Source: Dysidea avara
Lineage: Eukaryota > Porifera > Demospongiae > Dictyoceratida > Dysideidae
Assembly (NCBI RefSeq): GCF_963678975.1
Contig: NC_089272.1
Span: 43,653,391-43,717,390 of the forward strand
Length of the DNA: 64,000 nucleotides
Direction of reading: 5' to 3'
The notes below the pieces were generated by a model. The model did no database searches, was not told the origin of the DNA, and worked only from the letters and a program-made list of their open reading frames with translations. The number at the start of each line of letters is the position of its first letter. Position 1 is the first letter of the stretch. The translations under genes were made by a program, and so were the position numbers. Of this stretch, positions 6,348 through 64,000 are shown one piece after another.

Positions 6348-9300
6348 TCATGGCAACTCTGCTGCTGTGACCTCAAGAGGATAGAGCTTAGTTATTGGTC
6401 GATTTGTCTGACCAGTGGATGTCCTGACATTTGCAGAACGAGCGAATCCATCGTTGCCCTTGTTAAGATGTTCAACAACACCTAGTCTCCACTGAATCCG
6501 GGGAGCATCATCGTGGATGAGGACAACATCACCAACTCCTATCATCTGTGTGTTATTGCCTGTTGAGCGATGGAATTCTCGAAGCGAGGTCAGATACTCC
6601 TTCTGCCATCTGGTCCAAAAATGCTTGAAGAGCAGTGCTTGAGTCTTAGTCCTCTTCCTAATGTCTGCATCATCACCGTATGTTGGGTCATCTATCTCAT
6701 CATCTTCTACTCTCTGATAAGGCAGGGAGATAATGGGTCGGCCATATAGGAGGTGGGATGGTGTTATGGGGTCTATGTCATTGACATCAGCAGAAACATG
6801 GGTTAGCGGACGGTTGTTCAGCACAGCTTCTACCTCCACCACTATGGTCTGGAGACTGTCCAATGTGACATGACTGCGGCCCAATATCTTCTTCAGAACT
6901 GACTTCGTGAGCCCAATGAGTCTTTCCCAAAATCCCCCAAACCAGGGGGCACGTTTGGGGATAAAACGCCAATCAACACCTCTCCTTGAAAGACTCTCAG
7001 CTAGTTCCTCAGATGATAATAGGCTCTTGAGCTCCTCGGCCGCAGCCAAGTATGTGGAGGCATTGTCAGAGAGCATTAATCTTGGCAGGGATCTTCTGCT
7101 GGCGAAGCGACGGAATGCCTGTAAGAAACACGCAACAGTTAGATCAACAACTATTTCCAGATGGATTGCTCTGGAAACAGCGCAGGTGAAGAGGCAAATG
7201 TAGGCCTTGCATTCACCTTCACTGCTCCGGACGTACAGCGCACCAGTGAAATCCACTCCGGTGACTTCGAACGGATTAGCCATATTGACTCGGCATTTCA
7301 CAAGTGGTGGAGGGTCTGGCGCTGAATATGGTCTACATGAAACCTTTCTGCAGATTACACACTTCCGGAGCAGTGAGCGGATGCGCTGTCTTCCTGATGG
7401 TATCCAGTACTGCTGCCGGATAACCGTCAGGGTGGAGTTCACGCCACCGTGACGTTGTGTTATGTGTGCTTGTATGATCACAAGGTTTGTGTAATGGTGT
7501 TTAGATGGCAGCAAGTAGGGAAACCTTGTAAGCTCTGAAAGTGGGGCATTGTGGATGCGCCCACCACATCTAATCAGCTGGTTCTGATCCAAGAATAGCC
7601 TGAGCTGTCTTACCAGTGGGAGCCGTCGAGATTTTGAAGTCAAGTTAGAGATCTCTCTGGGAAATTCTGCATGTTGAACAGCTTCAAGGACCTTCAGGTT
7701 TGCCGTAGACATCTCTGCTGGGGTTAGATACCTTGTGCTGACAGTTAGGAGATGTCTTGTATTGTTGACAAAGCACAACACATAGGCAGTTACTGCAAGC
7801 AATCTCTTTAAGCTACTGTACCTCTTGATATCTATGATGTTTAGGAGGGTAACTGATGGGTCGCTTTCATCTTGTTCGGTGTGCGAGCTTTGATCTGCTT
7901 CTTCTAAGTCAATTTCTGATTGTGATAGGAGCACTCCTGTAGGGTCCCAGACTGGCCAACGTTGTTGAGATGACAACCATGGTGGTCCCTGTAGCCACAT
8001 GGTAGATGAGCTGAGCTGTTGAAAGGTTATCCCTCTTGTCAGGAGATCTGCTGGATTTTCTGCAGATGGACAGTACTTCCACCTATTGGAAACAGAGTGA
8101 ATCTCAGCAACCCTATGACTTACATATGGCTTCAATGTTTTCTGGCTATTAATCCAATGCAGAACTATCTGACTATCTGACCACAAATGAACAGTCACAT
8201 TGATTGTCAGGGATTTCATAATAAAGTGAGCTAGCCTGGCCGCAAGTACAGCTGTATTTAATTCCAATTTGGGCAGGGTTAGCTGCTTCAATGGTGCAGC
8301 TCTAGTCTTGGACATCAGTATTGAGGCTGGTCCTTGCCCTTGTTGGATAAAGGCAACTGCGCCGTAGGCCTTTAAGCTTGCGTCAGCAAACACATGCAGA
8401 CTAGTGGAAACACCCTGAGGTACTGGAAAAATAATATTGTACTTGCGGGAGAAGGACAGAGTTGTGGCTTGTGCAATGTTCGCAGCAATGGTGATCCATT
8501 GAGTGCATAGATTGGGGTCAAGTGTAGTGTCCCACTCTAAATGCTCTTGCCATAGCTGTTGTAGGAAGAGCTTTGCGGAGATCGTGACAGGTGATAGTAG
8601 TCCCAATGGATCAAAAATGCTTGATGACCACTTGAGAACCTCTCGCTTAGTCATTGTAGGTGGAAATTTTGTGTCTAGGTTGGGGGAGACATAGAGCATA
8701 TCACTCTCAGTGTTCCAGTACATTCCTAGTACTTTGACTGGGTTGCTTGGTTCAACAACCTTGTGCTGTGATGCTACCTGCTGAAGGAAATCACAGTTCG
8801 AGGACCAGGAGCGTAGGTTGAAACCTGCACTACCAAGTACTGAACGAGACTCAATGAAATATTTGTGTGCAGCTTCCTCACTATGGCAACCAGACACAAC
8901 ATTGTCTACGTAAAGATTGTGAAGTAGATCCTGTGATATTGCTGAGGAATTCCGAATTAGGTGGAAGCTAAGTGCTGCATACAGCATGAAAGGAGAACTA
9001 GTAGCTCCAAATAGCACAACTCGGAATCTATAGATCACAAAGGGGCTGTTCTCATCAGTGGGATCTGACAGCCATAAAAAACGTGTACTGTCCCTGTCTG
9101 ATTCGTCTAAATACACATGGAGAAAGGCTTTCTCGATGTCAGCTGAAAGCGCAATTGTATGTAGCCGGAAACGGAGAAGAATGGTGCAAAGATCTGTGAG
9201 GAACGGGGGGCCTGCTGAAAGGCAGTCATTAAGGCTAGGATTGTTGCGAGACTGTTTGCAACTGCAGTCGTACACTATTCGGATAGGTGTGGTGGCCGAG

Positions 9301-10976
9301 TCTTTTCTGACTGGGTGATGGGGAATGTAGTGTACATTATGTGTGTGACTGCCACTCTCTACTCTTTCTATGAAGCCTTTTTGTTCTTGATCTTTAATGA
9401 TGGTTCCATATGTTTTCAGTAGCTCTGGTGTTTTGGACAATCGATGTGCTAGGGACCTAGTTCGTTTCGAGCAGATAAAATAATTAGATGGGAGAGGAGG
9501 GTGATCCTCTCTCCAGGGAAAGCGCAAGCTATAGGCACCATCTGATCGTATAGTGATATGGCTTTTCATGTATTGCTGGAGGAACACATTGTTATCTGGA
9601 GTGTCTGCAGTGGGTGACGAGCTTGCAGACTCTGAATTCCAGAATTGGAATAGGTCACTGGTTTCTGTGGTACACGATAGTATAGCTATGTGTAAGTTAG
9701 TTGAATTAATGGGTTGAGGTAAGGGGAGTGGGCCAGACAATAGGTAGCCTAGTCGTGATTGAACTGCTGTGGGACCATCACCCCGAATTACCTCATCTTG
9801 CACGAAACGCCAGTAGTGGTCAGCCCCAATGAGAATTGAGATTTGGAAGTTCTCATCCCCGGTTACTGGATGAGCCAATGTGAGGCCCTTCAGATATGGA
9901 ACTTCACTCAGGTGGGTACGCACTGAGTTTCGGATGGGGGCTGCCAACTGCTGAACAATGAGGACCGAAATTGGGATACGAGCAGAGTTCAGGGTGTGTA
10001 CAAAGAGTGTTGCTACCACAAGGCTTCTGGACGAGGACACCTGCCCTCCAAAGGATGATACTGAGATAGTCTCACGGTGGGTTGGATGAAGACACAGTTC
10101 ATCAGCCAGTGCTTGTGTGATGAAAGAGCGCTGCGCTCCCTCATCAAACAGAATGTTGCCTTCTGTAGTGGTGGTTGCTGATGACACTTCAGCAATGGCT
10201 GTCTTCAATAAGCATACACTGGTATATAATGCTGAGAGAGGAGCAGGTGTCATTGTGGTAAATGCAGCATTGTCAGTTGCAGGTGCTTGTGCAGTGGGTA
10301 ATGCTGAGGTCTGTTGGTCAGGTTGTGATTGTGTGGTTTCTGTAAGGAAGGCGTGGCAAAGGCTGGTGTGGTGTCGCTTCTTGCACTCTCTACATGTGAA
10401 CTTAGAGGTGCATTGTGTCACCTTGTGCCTGGCAAGACAGTTGAAGCACAAATTGTCTCGCTTCACAATTGATAACCTCTCCTTAGGGTCTGTTACACTG
10501 TTACATACACCAGCCTTGTGACCTCCCTTACAGAAGACACATACAGGTTCCTTCCTCTGTTGACCATCACGATGGTGGTGGCCCTTGTGTGTAGCTGTGT
10601 GGAAGGAACTGGTGGATGGTGGGAAGCTGTCGTAATTGCTGGGTTTACCGCCATGTTGATAACTCATTTCAAAAATTTGGACTTCCTTGCGAATGGCAGC
10701 CATCACATCCTTAATGGACCATTCTGTCTCATAGTGCTCACGTGCCATATGCCGTTTGGTTTTAACAGGTAGTTTACTAAGTATGGATGAGGTCAATAGC
10801 ATACCATAAGATTCAGGAGACTTGCCAAGTGCTGATAGTGACCTCATGTGCCTTTCTATGGTATCATGAAAGCCCTGTAAACTAGCCAAGTTGTTAGATG
10901 GCTTTGTGAGGTTGAGTAATGCCTCCATGTGGGCATTGATAATCTTATATGGCTGCCCAAATCTATCCTTCAACAA
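6348..10976 (-). CDS. BEL/Pao gag-pol polyprotein, main open part (1542 aa)
   Basis: Encodes, in order: the C-terminal part of the gag-like DUF1759 domain (residues ~1-110); cysteine-rich zinc knuckles starting CVFCKGGHKAGVC (~145-210); a DUF1758-type aspartic protease with FDEGAQRSFI (~275-285); reverse transcriptase with SADIEKAFLHV and the active-site segment YVDN (near 8900 in the window; most relatives have YVDD); RNase H of the Peptidase_A17 region with FADASLKAYGA; an H2C2 integrase zinc finger and the catalytic core with VDFTG, LSDNAST and the FWERLIG segment; and a C-terminal DUF5641-like domain. The listed start is simply the first Met after a stop: the frame continues upstream through TGA at 11055-11057 and 11184-11186 into the gag start at 11720. 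The product would copy and integrate the element. Confidence 0.93.
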   Translation of the reverse strand: MLKDRFGQPYKIINAHMEALLNLTKPSNNLASLQGFHDTIERHMRSLSALGKSPESYGMLLTSSILSKLPVKTKRHMAREHYETEWSIKDVMAAIRKEVQIFEMSYQHGGKPSNYDSFPPSTSSFHTATHKGHHHRDGQQRKEPVCVFCKGGHKAGVCNSVTDPKERLSIVKRDNLCFNCLARHKVTQCTSKFTCRECKKRHHTSLCHAFLTETTQSQPDQQTSALPTAQAPATDNAAFTTMTPAPLSALYTSVCLLKTAIAEVSSATTTTEGNILFDEGAQRSFITQALADELCLHPTHRETISVSSFGGQVSSSRSLVVATLFVHTLNSARIPISVLIVQQLAAPIRNSVRTHLSEVPYLKGLTLAHPVTGDENFQISILIGADHYWRFVQDEVIRGDGPTAVQSRLGYLLSGPLPLPQPINSTNLHIAILSCTTETSDLFQFWNSESASSSPTADTPDNNVFLQQYMKSHITIRSDGAYSLRFPWREDHPPLPSNYFICSKRTRSLAHRLSKTPELLKTYGTIIKDQEQKGFIERVESGSHTHNVHYIPHHPVRKDSATTPIRIVYDCSCKQSRNNPSLNDCLSAGPPFLTDLCTILLRFRLHTIALSADIEKAFLHVYLDESDRDSTRFLWLSDPTDENSPFVIYRFRVVLFGATSSPFMLYAALSFHLIRNSSAISQDLLHNLYVDNVVSGCHSEEAAHKYFIESRSVLGSAGFNLRSWSSNCDFLQQVASQHKVVEPSNPVKVLGMYWNTESDMLYVSPNLDTKFPPTMTKREVLKWSSSIFDPLGLLSPVTISAKLFLQQLWQEHLEWDTTLDPNLCTQWITIAANIAQATTLSFSRKYNIIFPVPQGVSTSLHVFADASLKAYGAVAFIQQGQGPASILMSKTRAAPLKQLTLPKLELNTAVLAARLAHFIMKSLTINVTVHLWSDSQIVLHWINSQKTLKPYVSHRVAEIHSVSNRWKYCPSAENPADLLTRGITFQQLSSSTMWLQGPPWLSSQQRWPVWDPTGVLLSQSEIDLEEADQSSHTEQDESDPSVTLLNIIDIKRYSSLKRLLAVTAYVLCFVNNTRHLLTVSTRYLTPAEMSTANLKVLEAVQHAEFPREISNLTSKSRRLPLVRQLRLFLDQNQLIRCGGRIHNAPLSELTRFPYLLPSKHHYTNLVIIQAHITQRHGGVNSTLTVIRQQYWIPSGRQRIRSLLRKCVICRKVSCRPYSAPDPPPLVKCRVNMANPFEVTGVDFTGALYVRSSEGECKAYICLFTCAVSRAIHLEIVVDLTVACFLQAFRRFASRRSLPRLMLSDNASTYLAAAEELKSLLSSEELAESLSRRGVDWRFIPKRAPWFGGFWERLIGLTKSVLKKILGRSHVTLDSLQTIVVEVEAVLNNRPLTHVSADVNDIDPITPSHLLYGRPIISLPYQRVEDDEIDDPTYGDDADIRKRTKTQALLFKHFWTRWQKEYLTSLREFHRSTGNNTQMIGVGDVVLIHDDAPRIQWRLGVVEHLNKGNDGFARSANVRTSTGQTNRPITKLYPLEVTAAELP

Positions 10977-11720
10977 CTCAAGTGATTGTGTGTAATTCCT
11001 TTCAGTGAGGGTAAACCCAGCAATAACACGAGCAGCATCCCCATGTAGTTGTGCTCACAAGTAATTAAATTTTTGCACATCATTAAGACCAACATTCGAG
11101 TGTACAGCAGCGTCAAACGAATCCCAAAACGTCTGCCATTGAATTGGATCCCCACTAAAGGTAGGCAGGATCAGTTTTGGGAGTCAGCTGACGTTATGGT
11201 GTGTGTCTGCAACTATTAATCGCTTATGTGATTTACTCACGGTATCCTCTGTCGGCTTCACAACTGGCGATGAGGTTAGTGAATCAGTTGTCACTGGGAG
11301 CTGAGTATCAGAATGCACAGCTGAGGAGTCCGTGGGCGGCGGTGAGGTTGGTAGTATGGTATGAGCATCAGTAGGCTTAGCAGGTGGCGCTTGGCTAGCT
11401 TTCCGTAGAAACTCGGTGAGAAAGGCTATACGCTCATCTAAATCAAATTGGTAAGCATCAGCTTTCGAAATGTCCTCTTCCAACTCTGTCTCGTCATCAA
11501 TCTTTTCGGCGATTACATTGTTCAGCTCGACCAGCTGGCCTTGCTTAGCCTTGAGTTGGCAAAGTGTAGTATCGGCCATCAGCTTCGCTGCTTCCTTGAC
11601 CGATTGTGAGTTGACGCCTTCAAGATCAGCGGAAAGGATGCCATCGACTTTCCCTAGAAGTTTAGTCACACTGGATTTGGTAGCGCGTCGTCTGGTCCGG
11701 AGACGTTGGATGTTTTCCAT
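10977..11720 (-). pseudogene. BEL/Pao gag N-terminal part, interrupted by two TGA codons
   Basis: Starts MENIQRLRTRRR at 11720, 25 bp after the 5' LTR, the usual place for a BEL/Pao gag start. 178 codons are open to TGA at 11184-11186, and a second TGA lies at 11055-11057. All three segments and the downstream pol frame are in the same phase (separations 129 and 81 nt), so this is one frame with two nonsense changes and no frameshift. The N-terminal part is rich in K, E and D and probably helical. Both stops are TGA, which a C-to-T change at a CpG can produce. Without readthrough the full polyprotein is not made. Confidence 0.85.
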
Positions 11721-19877: not shown

Positions 19878-20072
19878 TTGGCGTAGTCGGCAGGATTGGT
19901 CATCGCCGCCACTCTGAACCCAAGGAGAGAAAGCTGTTGTACCATGGCCACCCTTAACGGTACCTGATAAGGTGGAGTCTAATTGAACCGAGACACTGTT
20001 GTGTTGCTTAAACATTTTCAGAGCTGAGGAGCACCGCCCCACAAGCCTGACCCGAGAGGCACTGATTCTGGA

Positions 20073-23000
20073 ATGTCCGACAAGAACCCGGTGGAGCGAG
20101 GACCAGTACGTCAAATGACAACTCAAAGGCCAGTGATTCTTCCTGATGTGTTTTCTGGGGAAGGGGAATTTAGCGACTGGGTCCAGCACTTTGATAATGT
20201 AGCCATACTCAACGGGTGGGACGAGGTACAGAAGACACTTTGGTTGCACGTGCGATTGACTGGTAAAGCTCACGTGGCGCTTACTCGAATTAAGGACACA
20301 GGGTACAAACACACTATAGAGGCGCTTCGAGAACGCTTTGAGCCGTCAGTAACCAAGAATCTGTACAAAGCTGAGTTACACTCTCGTGAGAGGCAAGAGG
20401 GCGAGAGCTGGGGTGATTTTGCTGACGCACTGTCTGTACTAGCAGACAAGGCTTATCCAGACTTGGAAGAAGCAGCTAGGGAACACATCGCACTCAATAG
20501 ATACCTCGACCAACTGGACAACTCCCAGGTGGCATTTGGCGTGAGACAAAAACGCCCTTCAACGATGGTAGCAGCACTTGCAGCTACTCTGGAACTCGAG
20601 TCGTATTTGATACAGTGCAGCGCTCAAGGTGATGGCGCAGGTGTGCAACCCGGAACGACTCAAGGGAACGCTGTAGCATCCGTTGAACCGGACCTGACAT
20701 TGATGATAGAAAATTTGTTGGAGAAGCTAAGCAGACTGGAGAAGAAAGTGGAAGATGCAGAGAGCAGTCGATATCAACCACGGAGACAAAGAAAGAGAAG
20801 GAGGCAGCCCCAAGCAATTATGTGCCATGTCTGTAAGCAACCAGGGCATTATGCTCGGGGATGTGCTAGCAGTATACCTGTGGACCCAGAAAATAAGGCA
20901 ATGACTACAAGTGAGATGCAGACACAAAGGAACAAGGATGCTAGCAATGCTGACCCCACAGTAGATAATGATGTCACACCCACAATTTCTATTAATAGTG
21001 TATCTAAATATTCCGTGCCTGCGCATGTGTATGGCCATCAGGTATCATTCCTGATTGATACGGGAGCAGCTGTGTCCCTCATAAGTAGTGAGGTGTGGGA
21101 TCGAATCAAGCCGAGTAATTCTCCCAAGTTAAACCATGCTAGTATGCGGCTGGTTGGTGTAGATGGCTCACCAATGCGAGTACAGGGATCTGTGATGGTC
21201 AATCTACAGCTGTTAGGGCAAATTTTCCAACAGGAGGTGATTGTAGCTGATGCATTAACATCAGAGGGTATACTAGGGCTAAACTTTCTTGAGGCTCATG
21301 AATGTGTTTTGGACCTTGGTCATGGTGAGTTGCGCACTCGTACTATTAAAATACCCTTGTGTGCTCATACATTACCTGGCCCATCGGTCACACAAGTTGA
21401 TGTCACCGTGCAAGACACCATTACTATTGGGGCTCTTAGTGAAATTGAAGTAATGGGGATGATGCCAGTCACCTGTCAGGGGAATTGGATTGTGGAGAAT
21501 AAGAAGTCTAAGAAAGCAGAAGTACTTGTTGCTAGTGCTGTTGTGATACCACGAAAAGGGTTTGTTCCTATGCGTCTGCTTAACATGGAGTCCCACCCCG
21601 TCACTGTACATAAAGGGACCAAAGTTGCAGATGCCACAGCGATAGAGCCATTGGATGAGGTATCGGGGGTAACCAAATCTGACGTCCTGATGCAGCAGGG
21701 AGATTGGGAAGCTATCTTGAGCAGTATTTTGGGTGCAATGCCAAATAGTTTAACTGAACACCAGCTGAGACAATTCAGTGCACTGCTCACCTCATATGCT
21801 CACCTGTTTGCCCTGAAACCAGATGACTTGGGTAGGACAAATGTGCTTAGCCATCGAATTGAGACCACAGGAAATCCAGTCCGGCAAGCTGTGAGGAGGG
21901 TACCGCTACCTCAAAGGGATCAGATAAAGAAAATGATAGCAGAGATGCAAGAAAAGGAAATTATCGCACCATCTAAGAGTCCGTGGGCATCACCAATCAT
22001 TTTAGTGCCAAAGAAAGATGGTTCTTTGCGGTTTTGTGTTGATTACCGGAAGGTTAACGAAATAACACATAAGGATGCTTACCCAATTCCAAGGATAGAC
22101 GACACTCTGGATACTTTAGCTGGTTCAAAATGTTTTTCTACATTGGACTTGAAGAGCGGGTACTGGCAAGTAGAGGTAGATGAGAAGCACCGGGAGAAAA
22201 CTGCCTTTTGTACCCATGAAGGTCTATTTCACTTTAATGTTATGCCGTTTGGGCTGTGTAATGCCCCAGCAACCTTTCAAAGGTTAATGGATATGGTATT
22301 GTCAGGGTTACAATGGAGCAGTTGCATTGTCTATATAGATGATATTATTATTGTAGGTAAAACATTTGAGGCACATCTGAGCAACCTTAGGCAAGTCTTT
22401 GAACGATTAGACAGAGCAGGACTAAAATTACAACCCCACAAGTGCCAGTTCATGCAACCTAAAGTGCAATTCTTGGGGCATGTTGTTTCTGCAGATGGGA
22501 TCTTACCTGATCCAGACAAAACATGTCGTGTACGAGAATGGCCTATACCTACTACCATTAAAGAAACACAACAATTTCTAGGCTTAGCCAGCTATTATAG
22601 AAGATTTATCAAAAACTTTGCTTCAGTAGCTTCACCATTGCACAAGCTTACAGAGAAGAAGTCTGAATTCAAATGGACTACCCAGTGCCAGGAAGCCTTT
22701 GATTGCTTAAAGACTCGCTTAGTTTCTGCACCTATACTTGCTTTACCAGACTGGTCACAGCCTTTCATTTTGGACACTGACGCCAGTGACATGGGCATTG
22801 GAGCAGTGTTATCCCAGATCCAAGAGGGCAGAGAGTGTGCTGTTGCATATGCCAGCAGAAGTTTGACTAAGGCTGAGCGCAATTACTGCGTGACGAGAAG
22901 AGAACTATTGGCTGTGGTGACCTTTCTTCAGCACTTCCGCCCTTACCTTCTAGGATCACATTTCACAATTCGGACTGACCATGGTGCCCTGGCGTGGTTA

Positions 23001-23624
23001 CAGAAGTTTAAAGACCCAGAAGGCCAAGTTGCACGTTGGGTACAGAAGCTACAAGAGTATCACTTCACAGTTAAGCATAGGCCAGGTAAAAGTCACAACA
23101 ATGCTGATGCCATGTCAAGAATCCCTTGTAAACAATGTGGAATCATTCCAGCTGATGAGGCTCTTGCACTAGCAGCAGTAGTCCCTACTGATCTGGCTTC
23201 ACTGAGTGCTCACTCCCCAGAGGAACTTCGAACTGCCCAGATAGATGATCCCCGTATTTCATCAGTACTGGCTGCTAAGGAAACTAATCAGAAACCGGCT
23301 GTTCTGAGCAATAACAGTCCCGAGGACCGCAGACTCTGGCAGTTGTGGGACCAGTTGATAGTCATCAACGGAGTGTTGTATAGGCAGTTCTCTGAACCTC
23401 AGAGGGATCAGAAGTGGCTACAGTTTGTAGTCCCTAAGAATCATCGGTCAGACATTCTGGCATCACTGCATGATGGAGTAACAGGTGGTCACCTGGGACA
23501 GGAGAAGACCTTTGGAAGGGTTAAAGAATGTTTTTATTGGCCTGGATATTGGAATGACACTTGCAGCTGGTGTCAAACCTGTGCAAGTTGTGCTACTAGG
23601 AAATCACCTCCTGTTTCCAAATGA
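20073..23624 (+). CDS. Gypsy gag-pro-RT-RNaseH-integrase N-terminus (1183 aa)
   Basis: One frame holds a retrotransposon gag domain (~residues 25-190, with FSDWVQHFDNVAILNGWDEV), a CCHC zinc knuckle CHVCKQPGHYARGC (251-264), an aspartic protease with DTGAA (~329-333), reverse transcriptase with LDLKSGYWQV and YIDD (754-757), RNase H with DTDASDMGIGAVLSQ (from ~899) and DHGALAWL, and the H2C2 zinc-binding part of integrase with HLGQEKTFGRV and CQTCASCATR. It stops at TGA 23622-23624, inside the integrase, between zinc finger and catalytic core. Gag and pol are fused without a frameshift. Start chosen as the first Met in frame, ~195 bp after the LTR. Confidence 0.95.
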   Translation: MSDKNPVERGPVRQMTTQRPVILPDVFSGEGEFSDWVQHFDNVAILNGWDEVQKTLWLHVRLTGKAHVALTRIKDTGYKHTIEALRERFEPSVTKNLYKAELHSRERQEGESWGDFADALSVLADKAYPDLEEAAREHIALNRYLDQLDNSQVAFGVRQKRPSTMVAALAATLELESYLIQCSAQGDGAGVQPGTTQGNAVASVEPDLTLMIENLLEKLSRLEKKVEDAESSRYQPRRQRKRRRQPQAIMCHVCKQPGHYARGCASSIPVDPENKAMTTSEMQTQRNKDASNADPTVDNDVTPTISINSVSKYSVPAHVYGHQVSFLIDTGAAVSLISSEVWDRIKPSNSPKLNHASMRLVGVDGSPMRVQGSVMVNLQLLGQIFQQEVIVADALTSEGILGLNFLEAHECVLDLGHGELRTRTIKIPLCAHTLPGPSVTQVDVTVQDTITIGALSEIEVMGMMPVTCQGNWIVENKKSKKAEVLVASAVVIPRKGFVPMRLLNMESHPVTVHKGTKVADATAIEPLDEVSGVTKSDVLMQQGDWEAILSSILGAMPNSLTEHQLRQFSALLTSYAHLFALKPDDLGRTNVLSHRIETTGNPVRQAVRRVPLPQRDQIKKMIAEMQEKEIIAPSKSPWASPIILVPKKDGSLRFCVDYRKVNEITHKDAYPIPRIDDTLDTLAGSKCFSTLDLKSGYWQVEVDEKHREKTAFCTHEGLFHFNVMPFGLCNAPATFQRLMDMVLSGLQWSSCIVYIDDIIIVGKTFEAHLSNLRQVFERLDRAGLKLQPHKCQFMQPKVQFLGHVVSADGILPDPDKTCRVREWPIPTTIKETQQFLGLASYYRRFIKNFASVASPLHKLTEKKSEFKWTTQCQEAFDCLKTRLVSAPILALPDWSQPFILDTDASDMGIGAVLSQIQEGRECAVAYASRSLTKAERNYCVTRRELLAVVTFLQHFRPYLLGSHFTIRTDHGALAWLQKFKDPEGQVARWVQKLQEYHFTVKHRPGKSHNNADAMSRIPCKQCGIIPADEALALAAVVPTDLASLSAHSPEELRTAQIDDPRISSVLAAKETNQKPAVLSNNSPEDRRLWQLWDQLIVINGVLYRQFSEPQRDQKWLQFVVPKNHRSDILASLHDGVTGGHLGQEKTFGRVKECFYWPGYWNDTCSWCQTCASCATRKSPPVSK

Positions 23625-23657
23625 GCGCCACTAGGTACAATAACAGCAAGCTATCCT

Positions 23658-24776
23658 ATGCAAGTTATGGCCATGGATATCTTGGGACCATTCCCTGAGA
23701 GCCAAGCTGGCAACAGTTACATACTGGTTGTGGCTGATTATTTTAGTAGATGGATGGAGGCTTTTGCAATCCCGAATCAAGAGGCTAAGACTGTTGCCAT
23801 TCGCCTGGTAGATGAGGTGTTCATGCGTTTTGGAGTACCTAGCCAGCTTCACTCAGATCAGGGGAAACAGTTTGAGTCACAGCTGATGTCAGAGGTATGC
23901 AAGCTTTTAGGTATTCAAAAGAGTAGAACTTCCCCATACCATCCACAATGTGATGGCATGGTGGAGAGATTTAACAGGACACTACTAAGCATGTTAGCTA
24001 CCCACTGCAAAGACAATCCGTGGGATTGGGAAAATCACATTCGCAAGGTATGCTTTGCTTATAACACCAGTACTCATGCCTCGACCAGTTATGCACCATT
24101 TTATTTAATGTATGGCCGTCAGGCAGTTCTACCCATAGACATCCTATATGGCACTGCAATAGATAACAAGACACAATCCATCAATGAATATGCAGCAGAC
24201 CTTGAGAAGCAACTGACAGCTGCATTTGAAGTAGCAAAGAAGACTGCTGGAGTGCAGCATCAAAGGCAGAAAGCATATTATGACCAGAGGGAAAATGGTT
24301 CACCGTTTAAGACTGGTGACATGGTATGGGTGTTAAACCCAAAAGTCCCAAAGAACACTAGTAGGAAGCTTTTCCACCCTTGGACTGGACCTTTCAAAGT
24401 CATGAAAAAGCTGTCCGAGTGCACCTATAGAGTACAGTGTCAAAGGGGACGGAGGCAGCGACAGGTGGTGCATTTTAACCGATTAAAGCCATGTCCACAG
24501 GACATTCAACTAGATGGTGACTTGCCTTCCACTTCTGCCAGTAGTGATCAACCAGCCGCAGCAAGTGAGGAACATGTACCTACCCCTCGAGCTCCACCTG
24601 TGGGAACAGATTTGGAGTTGGTAGATTATGATGATGAATGCTACTCCAGTGATCAACCTACATCAAGACAACCTACAAATGTTGGAACTGATCAACCCCC
24701 AAGTGAGACAAGACGTTACCCAACCAGACAGCACCGGCCTCCTGTGAGACTGCAGGATTATGTGAGAACGTCTTAG
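23658..24776 (+). CDS. Gypsy integrase catalytic core and C-terminus, separated by one TGA (372 aa)
   Basis: Same reading frame as 20073-23624, separated only by TGA at 23622-23624 and 33 further nt before the next Met. It carries the integrase triad D7 (MDILGPF), D67 (SDQGKQF) and E103 (DGMVERFNR) with the canonical 35-residue D-E spacing. A chromodomain-free C-terminal domain follows (GDMVWVLNPKVPK...GPFKVMKKL, ~205-250), then a Ser/Thr/Pro-rich tail. The upstream stop severs it from the zinc finger. The initiating Met given is nominal; no independent translation signal is evident. Confidence 0.92.
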   Translation: MQVMAMDILGPFPESQAGNSYILVVADYFSRWMEAFAIPNQEAKTVAIRLVDEVFMRFGVPSQLHSDQGKQFESQLMSEVCKLLGIQKSRTSPYHPQCDGMVERFNRTLLSMLATHCKDNPWDWENHIRKVCFAYNTSTHASTSYAPFYLMYGRQAVLPIDILYGTAIDNKTQSINEYAADLEKQLTAAFEVAKKTAGVQHQRQKAYYDQRENGSPFKTGDMVWVLNPKVPKNTSRKLFHPWTGPFKVMKKLSECTYRVQCQRGRRQRQVVHFNRLKPCPQDIQLDGDLPSTSASSDQPAAASEEHVPTPRAPPVGTDLELVDYDDECYSSDQPTSRQPTNVGTDQPPSETRRYPTRQHRPPVRLQDYVRTS

Positions 24777-25377: not shown

Positions 25378-25691
25378 TTCTTAAACTGGGAATGTCCAAA
25401 CATTTGTTTCAACTTGCCGATGTGTTGTTGTGATGGTAATGGGATATCTGCTAAGACCGATAGCACGTGATATAGTAAACCACACCCCTCACCCGCCCCC
25501 ACATCATCATCTTGTTCCACTGGTTGACTAGTTGCCATCTGAAACTGTTCATCGTCCATCTCGCACAATAACGAGTCGAACTCGTCAATATTATCATCCA
25601 CGGGTCCATCTTCAGCCAAGTCTATCGCCTTACTGGCCGAATAAGTACTCAAATCATTTGTAGGAGTACTCGCGCTAATCAGTCTAGCCAT
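25378..25691 (-). CDS. Probable first coding exon of a RecQ-family (WRN-like) helicase gene
   Basis: An open frame of 105 aa starts with ATG at 25691. After an acidic stretch (DNIDEFDSLLCEMDDEQFQ) it ends in GKLKQMFGHSQFKK, matching the conserved start of RecQ helicase cores (compare the LKxYFGHSSF motif of WRN). A good 5' splice site GTGAGT follows at 25377, so the helicase domain would continue in exons further left, which I cannot find in the window. The ATG overlaps by one base the terminus of the TIR element at 25691, so the true 5' end may lie beyond that element. An internal GTGAGG donor near 25490 is an alternative. Host gene versus transposon-derived is unresolved. Confidence 0.45.
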
Positions 25692-25911
25692 AGTCTCGCG
25701 TGGCCAGACCCTTTCCGCGCGGCCGCTTATCGATTAGAGATTATAAGCGGCGCGCTACAAGGGTCTGGACTAGTTCGTGATTTAAAAAGTAACTGCTCTC
25801 ACCAGTGGTTGGTGAGTGTTAATTGACTCACGCGATCTCTTAAGCGCCCAAGAAGTGGAATTACTGTACCGAGCTCAGGCTGACGAAAACAAGGACGAAA
25901 GCGTCTAGAAA

Positions 25912-28900
25912 ATGCCTGCTAGGGACCCGTGTGGGTTTTGCCTAATAAGGTAAATGCGGGTATTTCCGGACAGCGCACAATTCCGGACACTTCGTGTATA
26001 GCACCCAAGAATGAATCAACTAGAACACACTTTTCGATTTTTATAATCCCTATAAGAATAGCTATTCACAGCAGAAATTTCAAGGCAATCCGTTGTTTCG
26101 TTCCTCGGCTAGCTTGATAAAGGTACCAAAGTGTCCGGAATTGTACGCTGTCCGGAAATACCCGCATTTACCTTACCTACCAGTGAACCTTCGACAAGTA
26201 ATTGTTTGGTAGATAAAGAAGCTTAGTTCATCTTCATTTTACACAGGAAAAATAAGCGGAAGATTTTGAGCGGAGTTGCTTGTGAAGAAGAAGCAGCACT
26301 TTTAAAGAAGGTATTATCGCAGTTCCGTGGAGGAAGCGATTTTGGATTGTTCTGGAACTTGTTCATAAGTTCATCCCCTTGCCTCTGTGATAAATGCCAA
26401 AGTCTCTTGAAAAAGCAGCGATCTCAGGAAGCAGAACTCGCCAAAACTAATGCAGACATTACTGCAAATTGTGCAGCTTTGTTTAATGCCAGAAGGAATG
26501 TACCTCTATGCCTCCACCGCCACCTGAAAGGGTTTCAACAGGAAACAAGAGATCTCGAGAAACTTCACGCAGTGCCAGCTATCACACCAACCAGATCTTC
26601 ATCTCAATCGGATTCTGTAGATGTATCGGTACTGGCAGACTACAAATATCTTGTGTAAACTTACTGATCTACCCATAGGTAATTATCAAGCAACGGGCAC
26701 AACCAGGCTGTGTACCAAAGCAAGCCAAGCACATCATCACTCCGAGGAGGAAGGGTGCAGTAGTATCACTCGCCACCGGACGTTACAGATTAGCAGCTAC
26801 AAGTGTTTTTTTCTTTACGAAGACACATGACTATGTCATCACTTGTATGGCGAGACAAATCCGCGTTGAGATGAAGGCGATCTGTGGTTTGAAGAATGCT
26901 TCACTATTGAGAAATGGTAATGAAGGCCTGCAAAATTTTAGCTGGACTGCAATCTGGGAAGAATTTAGTCAGAGAGTTCCCACCCTTCTCAAGTTGTTGC
27001 AGAAGATATTGCCCCGGAGTAGCAATATGTTTTTGACATATTTGATTTGTGTTATGCTTAAGGAGAGGTGCAAACACATGTCCCTACTCCAAAGAGTGAT
27101 ATCTGTTTTGTTGTATGGTCATGGAACTAGTCAGCAGGTACGTCTGACATGTAACCTAGCTACATATTATGTATGACATCCTTATTAAAGGTTTATAGGT
27201 ACCTTCAGCCTTTGATGGTGTGCATGTCACCCTCTTCTACTGTGGATATAATAACCAAGTTATCTAAGCAGTTTGATGCAACAGTTTTGCACTGGGCTAG
27301 TGAATTAAAGAAGGTATATTGATTTATTTGTGTTCCCTTTTATTTATTTTTCCATTGTTTGTATAGAGGCTGGTACCAATACAGCCACCACAGCACCGTG
27401 AGTACAGTGTAGTGACAGATATACCCACAGATGAAGTAGAACCATCACAACACTGTGAATACCACTTGGCAGATGTATCCACAGATGAAGAGAGTGATTA
27501 CTCCATTGGTGAAGTATCACTGATATCAGAATGTGAAAGTGTACATTTAGACAATGATGATAATGTTGATGTAGATGATGATGGAGAAGATGCAACAGAA
27601 GTTGACGTTTTCCAGATTGACCCTAATGGTCTCATAGGTGGCGAAGTAGAGCTTGTGTCTCAGGATACTGGCAATCCCAACGATATTAGAATGCAGTTGT
27701 TTGAACCTGTAGATGGTCATCAGAGATATGAATGTGATGTACCTGTGCCAGATACTAGTTCTGCTAATAGTTTGATGCATGGGTCACCACTACTTGATAC
27801 TCGAATGGAAGTGGAAGCCACCCAGGGGAGCTCAAGTGAGGTTTGCCAAACTGAGACTACTGTAGCCAGCAACATGTGCAATGCACCCATGGATGACAAT
27901 GGCTATGTTTTGGTAATAGACAACCTGGACATGAATGTGCAACGCAGCTTTCAGAGAATCAATCGATCCACAGAGTCTATGCATTTTTGTCATGCATATG
28001 CAGTCTTGAACAGATTCGATACATCGGGGTTAGAAGATGGGCCACTTTCAGGAGTCCTGTCCTATGAAGTTGTACTGCCAAATATGACGGACCTGCAACA
28101 GATTTTGAATGATTTCAAGGTGCTTGTATCAAGGTAGGCAATATGATGTCCTATAGACACATAGAATACCATGTTGATTTACACTTCAAACAGAATGCTT
28201 GTCAGACATATGCCAGAATTTGGAGGTCATGAAGTCTTTGTTGATTGGCAAATTCAACATGAGTACAGTGAAAATATGTCTAAGAAATCTACTGTGGTAC
28301 GTTGAATATAGTATAATGTGATAATCCATGATAATAATCTGCTTTATTAGGTGCCATTAGGTGTGCAATTGCACAATGAAAACGTTTTAACTGAAGTGAC
28401 ACAGATTTTACTTGCTCTCAACAAATACATTCCTGCAGAAAGTACAGAAGTATCAGTGGAGGTCAATGGAACTCCACATGTACAGCAGGAAACAAGAGTG
28501 TGGCCTTGTCTGATTTTTGGGGACCAACTGACATCAGCCCGTGTACGAGGAGCTATAGCTTTGCGTTGTTTTCACAAGACAAGCTTAGCTCGCTTGGATG
28601 GATATGTACCAGCTACCAGTGACTGGCATGCAAGACTTTGTCTTGTTACTGTAAGTTTTTACACTGTTTTATACTGAATAATTATGTGTATTATATTAAT
28701 GAATTTTAGGTTTTGCAAAACCGATTTTACTCTGTAACACCTCATGACAAGGGCATTTTGTTTCAACTAAAGCAGGTGATAAATCGTACTTCATTTGGAA
28801 AAGTTCCACAGCATAATATGAAGGCAGCAGAGGACTTTTTGAATGTTGTAATGTGCGCCCATGTAACTACAGCAGCAGAGCAAGTGATGGATGAATCTAG

Positions 28901-29906
28901 AAATTCATCGCCTGACTGTAAGGCCATTGCAGAATCTATTGTCAATAAATTTGTAAACATATCCATCCCTGACAGTGCAGTTTCTGGTAATGTGACAAAT
29001 GTTAATGATTCTGTATATGTATATGCCACTGATTTCTTAACAATGGCACTGCTATGGCACGGATTTCATGATGCCACCAAGATGGGTGATGGCAACCGAA
29101 TGCTGAGTTACTGGAAATTTTTAACTGCAATTTTCAAAGACACAGGACATAGCAACTATCACTGTGAAAAAGGTGGGATATAAGATGGTATTTCCAGTGG
29201 CTTATTGAATACAAATAAGCCTTAATATAAATCCTGTATTATACTCATGTTATACTTTAGTATAATGCATACTATACTATTGCATGTATGGTTTCAGTTT
29301 AATTACCACAATACTTGGAATAGCTTATATCTGATATAATGCCCACACTATACTATCACATATATGGTTTCAGTATGTTTAACACATTTACTAAAGCCTT
29401 ATAGGGATTGTTAGTATAACACAGGTTATACCAAGCTTTTTTGTATTCAATAAGCCACTGGAAATATCATCTTATATCCCTCTTTTTTCACAGTGTATGC
29501 CAAAGAGGGGTTTCTCTTGTTGGCCCAGTCTTCTTTACTCTCGCCTAGAAAGATTGCTGAGATAAAGTGGTCTAGGACAGTCAACACTCATGGCAGACCT
29601 GGGAAGAATATTCCAGTAGACCTTCATTTGGAACATTTGAACAAAAGATTGAAGGGAATGTTGCGTGGCTTAGGATCTAACATTTCTCCTGAGAGTGTTC
29701 AGCGTGCCTCAAAGGTGTTGGGGCTGGTTGAGACGGTATGCACAAACTTTGAAAATGTTTCCAATATTACACCAACCAAAGACTATCACTCAATGCCATC
29801 CTTTGACAAGGATTTACAAAAATTACATGAACAGTTAGTGGCAGAGAAGGTGTTTCAGATCACAAATGGGCGGTCTCATAAGGGATTTCGTAAGCACAAC
29901 AATTAA
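25912..29906 (+). CDS. DUF6589-type putative DDE transposase, nine exons (1015 aa)
   Basis: Manual exon model: 25912-25949, 26247-26628, 26679-27137, 27191-27313, 27367-28133, 28194-28296, 28351-28650, 28710-29172, 29494-29906. All introns are GT-AG, most about 50 bp, and the sum is 3048 nt, exactly divisible by three. The N-terminus has a CxxC...CxxC module (CGFC; CLCDKC) resembling a ZAD-type zinc finger. The body matches what I know of DUF6589: VIDNLDMNVQ (D519, D522), GDQLTSARVRGA (D682), YATDFLTMALLWHGF, and WSRTVNTHGRPGKNIPVDLH followed by LEHLNKRLK (E925). Asp, Asp and Glu at these places would fit a DDE triad (inference). An acidic linker lies around residues 345-460. Exon 8/9 is interrupted by a MITE that probably acts as an intron. 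Confidence 0.8.
25946..26175. mobile_element. MITE (~230 bp) in intron 1 of the DUF6589 gene
   Basis: TAAGGTAAATGCGGGTATTT then CCGGACAG (25946-25973), continuing to 25992, is repeated inverted at 26129-26175, TIRs of ~47 bp. The exon 1 donor AAG|GTAAAT falls on the first bases of the left TIR; the acceptor (ACACAG, 26246) lies 71 bp beyond the right TIR. No clear TSD. Confidence 0.8.
29160..29495. mobile_element. MITE in DUF6589 coding sequence with splice sites in its TIRs (candidate introner)
   Basis: A 336-bp element with ~58-bp TIRs: left CACTGTGAAAAAGGTGGGAT, right ATCCCTCTTTTTTCACAGTG. It is flanked by TAT on both sides (29157-29159, 29496-29498). The left TIR supplies donor AAG|GTGGGA (29173). 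The right TIR supplies a pyrimidine tract and acceptor TTTTTTCACAG (29493). Splicing leaves 18 extra nt in frame (His-Cys-Glu-Lys-Val-Tyr). Removing the element and one TAT would restore an uninterrupted, conserved-looking DUF6589 segment. Read through unspliced, it gives TAA within a few codons. Confidence 0.82.
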
Positions 29907-30076
29907 TGGCCTCAATTGACTGGAAAAATACAAAGGAATGGGCTAAGAAGCAAGTACTGAATTATGATACATATTGATCAATATTATAATTATTAAATCT
30001 TTAACATGATTTCTGTAATACATTTTGATGTGGTATTTGCAATTACTATCAATTAGTTTACCAAACACCACAGTCT

Positions 30077-31419
30077 TCAAGTACACCATATGGTACACAA
30101 ATTGCAACAATTACATCCACTAAGACTACTCTCTTTATTAAAGAAAAGAAAGTCCTTAAAAAGCAGTTCCCTGTGGCAAACACTAATGTTTTCTCCATAC
30201 AGTTTTTCCTGCTCACTTACATCGTCACCAATTGCTTTGTGATACAAAATGGCTTGAGCCTGGTTACCATTCTTTCCTGCCCGCCCCATTTCTTGTACTA
30301 ACTCCTCTAGAGTATTTGGTGTTCCATAATTAATAACCCGGACTATGTCTTTACAGTCGATTCCCAGACCAAATGCTGTGGAGGCTATTATTAGCCTTAG
30401 TTTAGTCTCATTTTTGCAAAATTCAGTGATAATTTCTTCTCGCATATCATTATCAGATGCTGCCGTGAAAACGTCAATAAACATCAATAAGGTGGAACTG
30501 TAGGAATTGATCAGGAAGTTTTGGAGGCTCTGTAATATCTTTACCCAACAATTTCTTCATCTTACACATTTTTCCATAGTCCTTATGACCTACAGAATAC
30601 AACAGTTTTAGTGGTCTTTGTGTGATTTTCACGCAGGTCCTTGGCTAATTCTTCACACAATTCACTTAAATCTGGGCATGGCTCCACAATCATTTTAATG
30701 TTAGATCTATCAGGAGGTAGACCAACTATCACAGGATCCTCCATCGCAAGTCTGGACTTCACACTGGACAGAGTAGTCTTGATTGCTGTGGCTGTCAGTG
30801 CCATAACATTGATATTTTTTGGCAATAACCTTCTGTTTCCAATATCAGCAAAAGCAGTTCGAAATTTATGACTTACCAGAACTTAACACAATGAGCTTCA
30901 TCAACAACAAGAGCCTTCAATTTCTGCTGGTATGTAGGTGTTGTTAGCATATTGCGATATCTCCGATTAAGCAATAAAGACTCAGGACTAATGTATACTA
31001 ACTGAACATCTCCATTCAACACATCCATGGTAGCATTTTCATCAGTTTGGGCTTCACCAACAAATTCTACTTTCAAACCCCTCTGCAAAAATTTCCCCTT
31101 TTGATCAATCATTAAAGATATCAAAGGTGTGACAACCACAGCAATGCTTCCCTGGGCACCTTTTAGAAACAAAAGCAATATGAGATAATAATATTGTATG
31201 CACGAGTATAATTGCTTAGCCCCAGTACACCTTACCAAATAAGAAATCAAACAGTAGAGGGAGCATTGCAAATATTATAGATTTGCCATAACCAGTTGGC
31301 AAGGAAACAAACGTGTCTTTTCCTGAAACAAATGCCTCTATAGCTTCTAACTGTTTAGGTTTTAATCCTTGGATACCCATTCGCTGAGACGCGTGATTCA
31401 GGGCAGACGGCAGATCCAT
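30077..31419 (-). pseudogene. RecQ-like helicase gene of the 6-kb transposon, frameshifted
   Basis: Exon 1 (31236-31419, donor GTAAGG) starts MDLPSALNHASQRMGIQGLK and carries motif I SLPTGYGKS. Exon 2 (31159 downwards) has VVVTPLISLMIDQ, YISPESLLL and the DEAH box VVDEAHCV. Later parts have MALTATA (motif III), KTVVFCRS, STAFGLGIDCKD (motif V), QEMGRAGKNG (motif VI), and a Cys-rich end GCNCCNLC like a RecQ zinc-binding region. The frame is broken just after DEAH at ~30875 (TAA), after FCRS at ~30586, and near 30475 where a 10-bp tandem duplication occurs. Conserved residues continue in shifted frames across each break. A 47-bp intron with donor GTAAGT could bypass the first break but would remove conserved sequence. 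Probably inactive, unless the breaks are sequencing errors. Confidence 0.8.
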
Positions 31420-31660
31420 TTCGCCGGTACACCTCGTGTCTTCAACTACTTGTCACATGCGACTACTTCCAGTACACAAGTTTGATCTTTTACTAGCGCA
31501 GGATGCTTGTTACCCAGTCAAGGAATCGTCACCAATAACGTGTTGAAAACTTTTTAGTGCATGAACTAGTCCAGACCCTTGTAGCGCGCCGCTTATAATC
31601 TCTAATCGATAAGCGGCCGCGCGGAAAGGGTCTAGCCCGAGGTCTAGCCACGCGAGACTA

Positions 31661-57902: not shown

Positions 57903-64000
<6,098 letters not shown>

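Follow-up and report, generated by a model that had tools for sequence, protein, structure and literature searches.

The closest described relatives of the element treated here, a transposon with a DUF6589 gene and a RecQ-like helicase gene in a 64,000-nucleotide stretch of the genome of the sponge Dysidea avara (contig NC_089272.1; the whole stretch is called the window below), are found in AcademH, a lineage of DNA transposons within the Academ superfamily that was reportedly defined in Kojima 2020 (Mob DNA 11:15). Academ is classed as a DDD/E superfamily (PMC9587614, PMC10294476). AcademH is described as encoding a helicase and producing duplications of 9 or 10 bp, and AcademX as encoding a nuclease and producing duplications of 3 or 4 bp, so that the length of the duplication is related to the enzyme encoded (PMC10045372). 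AcademH elements are reported at low copy number in three fungal phyla (PMC10799480), and the Academ elements of bivalves have a mean length of 5565 bp (PMC10294476).

The element at 25691-31660 of the window is a terminal inverted repeat (TIR) transposon with one gene of each kind. Its helicase and the 9-bp duplications of its family match the published features of AcademH, and we therefore identify it, with a probability of about 0.92, as a decayed copy of an AcademH-lineage transposon. Helicase, 9-bp duplications and (by prediction) membership of a DDD/E superfamily are all shared with AcademH as it has been described, the comparison being one of published features. No feature was found that distinguishes the element from AcademH; the window copy carries two miniature inverted-repeat transposable elements (MITEs) and lacks a duplication of its own. 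AcademX, in contrast, is reported to encode a nuclease and to leave duplications of 3 or 4 bp (PMC10045372), although the transposase domain is possibly common to both lineages, by way of a helicase-free DUF6589 protein of 1745 residues discussed below. The original prediction, made from the letters of the window, could name no established superfamily that combines a DUF6589-type transposase, a helicase and 9-bp duplications; AcademH does so (PMC10045372). As AcademH already combines a helicase with 9-bp duplications, the transposase reading of that prediction is supported but its novelty is not. Hence, we regard the element as an ordinary AcademH family, and what is added is a likely function for DUF6589. 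This domain, of unknown function in Pfam, is probably the Academ transposase core, which is a modest new point; our literature search found no paper naming DUF6589.

Ends, copies and target duplications

The TIRs are complex, with inner arms of 89 nt at 94% identity (25702-25790 and 31549-31637) and outer arms of 20 nt at 95% identity (25691-25710 and 31641-31660). They flank a DUF6589 gene on the + strand and a helicase gene on the - strand, which converge, and the whole element measures 5970 bp, the two MITEs included. These arms, with the domain matches given below, bear out the complex TIRs of about 90 bp and the two convergent genes that had been predicted. Ten frames inside the element were scanned against Pfam, and no domain other than DUF6589 and DEAD/Helicase_C scored above cut-off in them; for two frames on its flanks, Pfam gave no match.

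A search for other copies with the same ends had been proposed with the original prediction. We searched the genome (551 Mb in 108 contigs) with the left end and scored the best 40 of 879 candidates; further copies were found. Duplications were surveyed in 30 fetched loci, two sibling regions and the window. Both ends could be placed in 17 copies, one of which is masked at its right end, leaving 16 that are readable. The 9-bp duplication is exact in 10 of these 16 and matches at 8 of 9 bases in three more, while the remaining three (locus L012, the C4 sibling and the window copy) have none; a match of at least 8 bases in 9 has a probability of 1e-4 per copy by chance. The 9-bp duplication originally claimed is thus true of the family and absent at the window copy. 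Most copies with a duplication (10 of 13) measure 537-547 bp, which leaves no room for the genes, and were presumably moved by proteins from other copies. A second subfamily, represented by locus L079, has ends of 218 nt at 99% identity, and in its gene-bearing copy on C15 inspection by eye showed a perfect duplication of 9 bp. The L079 copy has no duplication, and in the C2 copy of this subfamily only one end is visible.

DUF6589 as a putative transposase with a helicase partner

Three consecutive frames on the + strand match DUF6589 (PF20231) in Pfam, with E values of 8e-8, 3e-12 and 1.5e-10. The motifs DN, GDQLT and LEH were located in these and the preceding exon frame (Table 1). Among aligned helicase-paired copies, DNxD is common to 2 sequences, GDQ(L/V)T and DWH to 5 and EHLN to 6. 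This conserved order of D (in DN), D (in GDQLT) and E (in LEH) agrees with the triad D519, D682 and E925 of the original prediction. On the - strand, DEAD and Helicase_C were matched in Pfam. Two exon fragments match the RecQ family model TIGR00614 (E values of 6e-16 and 3e-16), under the whole-protein cut-off of the model because the queries are fragments, and in sequence comparisons with solved structures the best match was WRN for the window exon (E = 3e-10) and BLM for the corresponding L079 exon (E = 3.5e-20). The RecQ-like nature of the helicase, as first proposed, is supported by the TIGR00614, WRN and BLM matches.

The two genes are regularly found together. A genome profile search with PF20231 gave 111 listed matches, all over the family cut-off (two of them only when combined with neighbours in the same frame), which merge into 95 places; a search with the window helicase exon gave 148 listed matches in 143 merged places. 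A convergent helicase match lies within 5 kb of 82 of the 95 DUF6589 places, against a mean of 0.33 for random placement, and a match on the same strand at three. The regular presence of the helicase beside this type of DUF6589 argues for a need for the helicase. A reading of the DUF6589 protein as a putative transposase with a RecQ-like partner is, on sequence evidence, well supported. The protein would be a transposase of RNase H fold with a D-D-E triad; most likely it would bind to the long ends, make its cuts at TAGTCT and attach these ends to the target DNA with a stagger of 9 bp. The convergently encoded helicase would be its regular helper, which probably unwinds the DNA of the ends or of the target, either in transposition or in gap repair; we infer this role, as we do the D-D-E assignment and catalysis by the DUF6589 protein, whereas the anatomy of the element, the pairing of the genes in its copies, the 9-bp duplications and the conservation of the motifs were observed.

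A second type of DUF6589 protein is present in the same genome. Locus L081 (952-6189) encodes 1745 residues in a single frame, with a Cys-rich C-terminal end, and matches positions 63-366 of the 410 of PF20231 (E = 4.6e-14). DNFD, GDGKT, GDWH and DEAHEM are invariant in three aligned sequences of this type; the conserved D, D, DWH and E motifs are thereby found in both the helicase-paired and the helicase-free types. The 80 listed matches to this type merge into 50 places, and a helicase match is absent within 5 kb of 49 of them, so that DUF6589 can spread without this helicase. The sole exception (C6:32477940) is close to one of the listed helicase-DUF6589 pairs. This protein may represent AcademX; the lack of a helicase is what the other Academ lineage should show. 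Through PF20231 it would link the element to the Academ superfamily, though only indirectly. In the genome, none of four XPG_I places lies near a listed DUF6589, the nearest being more than 1 Mb away, a search that a divergent nuclease could escape. A PDB sequence search gave no match for the 1745-residue protein, no relative of the helicase-free core was confirmed among viral contigs, and one helicase-paired DUF6589 exon had no match among phage records. A single genome with many copies of both types would suit a test of the partner enzyme against the length of the duplication, an idea already in print (PMC10045372).

Several observations weigh against the identification as AcademH with a DUF6589 transposase. 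No helicase match lies within 5 kb of 10 of the 95 DUF6589 places, and 59 of the 143 helicase places, some of them strong matches, have no listed DUF6589. The weak matches among these 59 may be ordinary host helicases. One helicase match without a listed DUF6589 (C15:2585842, 91% identity) adjoins an end of the same family at C15:2586506, and the C4 sibling encodes both proteins, though its DUF6589 is missing from the listed PF20231 matches. Both ends were read in five gene-bearing copies: three of these (window 25691, L078 386 and L079 623) have no 9-bp duplication, the C3 copy of the L079 type has at best 7 of 8 bases duplicated, and the C15 copy has an exact one. AlphaFold predictions were of low confidence, with a predicted local distance difference test (pLDDT) value of 39 for the helicase-paired core without the exon of the first D (10 rows) and of 36 for the helicase-free core (residues 480-1150 of the L081 protein, 3 sequences), so that the D-D-E triad stays a prediction from conserved motifs. 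When the profiles of the two groups of transposases, with and without a paired helicase, were compared from small alignments, the E values were weak (0.057 and 0.39), and no XPG domain was found by Pfam in the 1745-residue protein. Separately, three of five gene-bearing copies without a duplication, against most short copies having one, are too few for a pattern. An RNase H-like order of strands and helices around GDGKT in the helicase-free prediction was not used, its pLDDT of 36 being too low.

Three other explanations were considered. That the element represents a new superfamily, in which a DUF6589 transposase was independently paired with a RecQ helicase, would be in keeping with the literature search, which found no paper naming DUF6589, and with a comparison to AcademH by published features; yet the helicase, the 9-bp duplications and the size (5970 bp with two MITEs, against 5565 bp) all agree with AcademH, so that this explanation demands coincidences and is very unlikely. 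An assignment to KolobokH, or to the relatives of Kolobok-1_CCri, is hardly to be expected either. The duplications found here are of 9 bp, whereas TTAA is the duplication typical of Kolobok. The transposase frames among the ten scanned match DUF6589, a different family from the Kolobok transposase, with no other family over cut-off, and DUF6589 is also found in a helicase-free protein of different layout. What Kolobok does share is a RecQ helicase within a DNA transposon, reported downstream of the transposase in KolobokH and on the complementary strand, as here, in Kolobok-1_CCri (PMC9587614). Finally, an accessory role for DUF6589, with the helicase or another protein doing the moving, would fit the absence of structural support for the triad, but is scarcely credible given that no further domain exceeded its cut-off in the ten frames scanned inside the element and that single-frame DUF6589 proteins are themselves repeated, with 50 merged places of which all but one lack a helicase match within 5 kb.

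Decay of the window copy and its MITEs

The AcademH-like copy in the window was compared with two siblings, the C8 copy and the C4 copy (L078). The C8 sibling is 98% identical over 28336-29159, the 5' part of the window copy being unmatched in the C8 stretch fetched; the C4 sibling is 91-92% identical to the window, with about 390 bp gone between 28166 and 28557. Both siblings carry a single TAT where the window has two, one on each side of the MITE in the DUF6589 exon, and the C4 sibling keeps a single TA at the point of the MITE near the 5' end. The exon MITE introduces an in-frame stop into the transposase domain, and the description of the DUF6589 gene as intact across nine exons is not borne out. 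The last helicase exon of the window falls in two frames; that of the C8 sibling aligns to the L079 exon in one frame, with three stops there. Because of the stop and the split exon, the window copy probably no longer yields a working helicase, nor a working transposase unless splicing removes the MITE.

Splicing of this MITE, which would then act as a ready-made intron, appears unlikely, although its sequence would allow it: with a GT 13 bases in from one end and an AG 2 bases in from the other, removal of the stretch between them would leave 18 additional bases without shifting the frame. Among the 28 copies of this CACTG-ended family that were read, GT is found at that place in 23 and AG in all 28; a 3-bp duplication accompanies all 28, that of the window included. 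The spacing of 243 residues between D682 and E925 in the original prediction is exactly reproduced if the MITE is spliced as a GT-AG intron, and hence the earlier gene model had treated it as one. If the MITE were spliced, the gene would be almost unaffected by the insertion, and the family of this MITE would supply new introns. The MITE near the 5' end was also considered as an intron and dropped, since the end opposite its donor-like GT lacks an AG resembling an acceptor. This second MITE is very young: its 40 scored copies, that of the window included, are about 100% identical, and 22 of them align over the full 230 bases of the query with the highest score.

Table 1. Features of the transposon, in window positions
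Feature	Position	Strand	Remarks
Left TIR	25691-25790	+	Starts TAGTCTCGCG; left end used to search genome
MITE near 5' end of DUF6589 gene	25948-26173		TA duplication; absent from L078; foreign to original element
Transposase exon frame	27367-28137	+	IDNLDMN motif in 3' part; candidate first D at 27919-27921
Transposase exon, DUF6589 part 1	28351-28659	+	GDQLT (candidate second D at 28522-28524); DWH (D at 28621-28623)
Transposase exon, DUF6589 part 2	28710-29159	+	Interrupted by MITE from 29160
MITE in DUF6589 exon	29160-29495		336 bp, CACTG-ended; TAT duplication; absent from siblings L077 and L078
Transposase exon, DUF6589 part 3	29496-29906	+	LHLEHLN; candidate E at 29631-29633
RecQ-like helicase gene	30077-31452	-	DEAD in 30873-31452; Helicase_C in 30077-30556; last exon over two frames
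Right TIR	31549-31660	-	Finishes CGCGAGACTA; exceeds left TIR by 12 bases close to outer end

Other repeats

Outside the element, the window contains long retrotransposon-like frames at 6348-11054 (-) and 20028-24776 (+), with reverse transcriptase and integrase-like stretches recognized by eye. A GT/CA dinucleotide repeat of about 1.2 kb at 60400-61600 appears as long open frames of repeated dipeptides. Elsewhere in the genome, another DUF6589-helicase pair is adjoined by a frame of 688 residues (locus L080, 5514-7580) that resembles, by eye, a hAT transposase.

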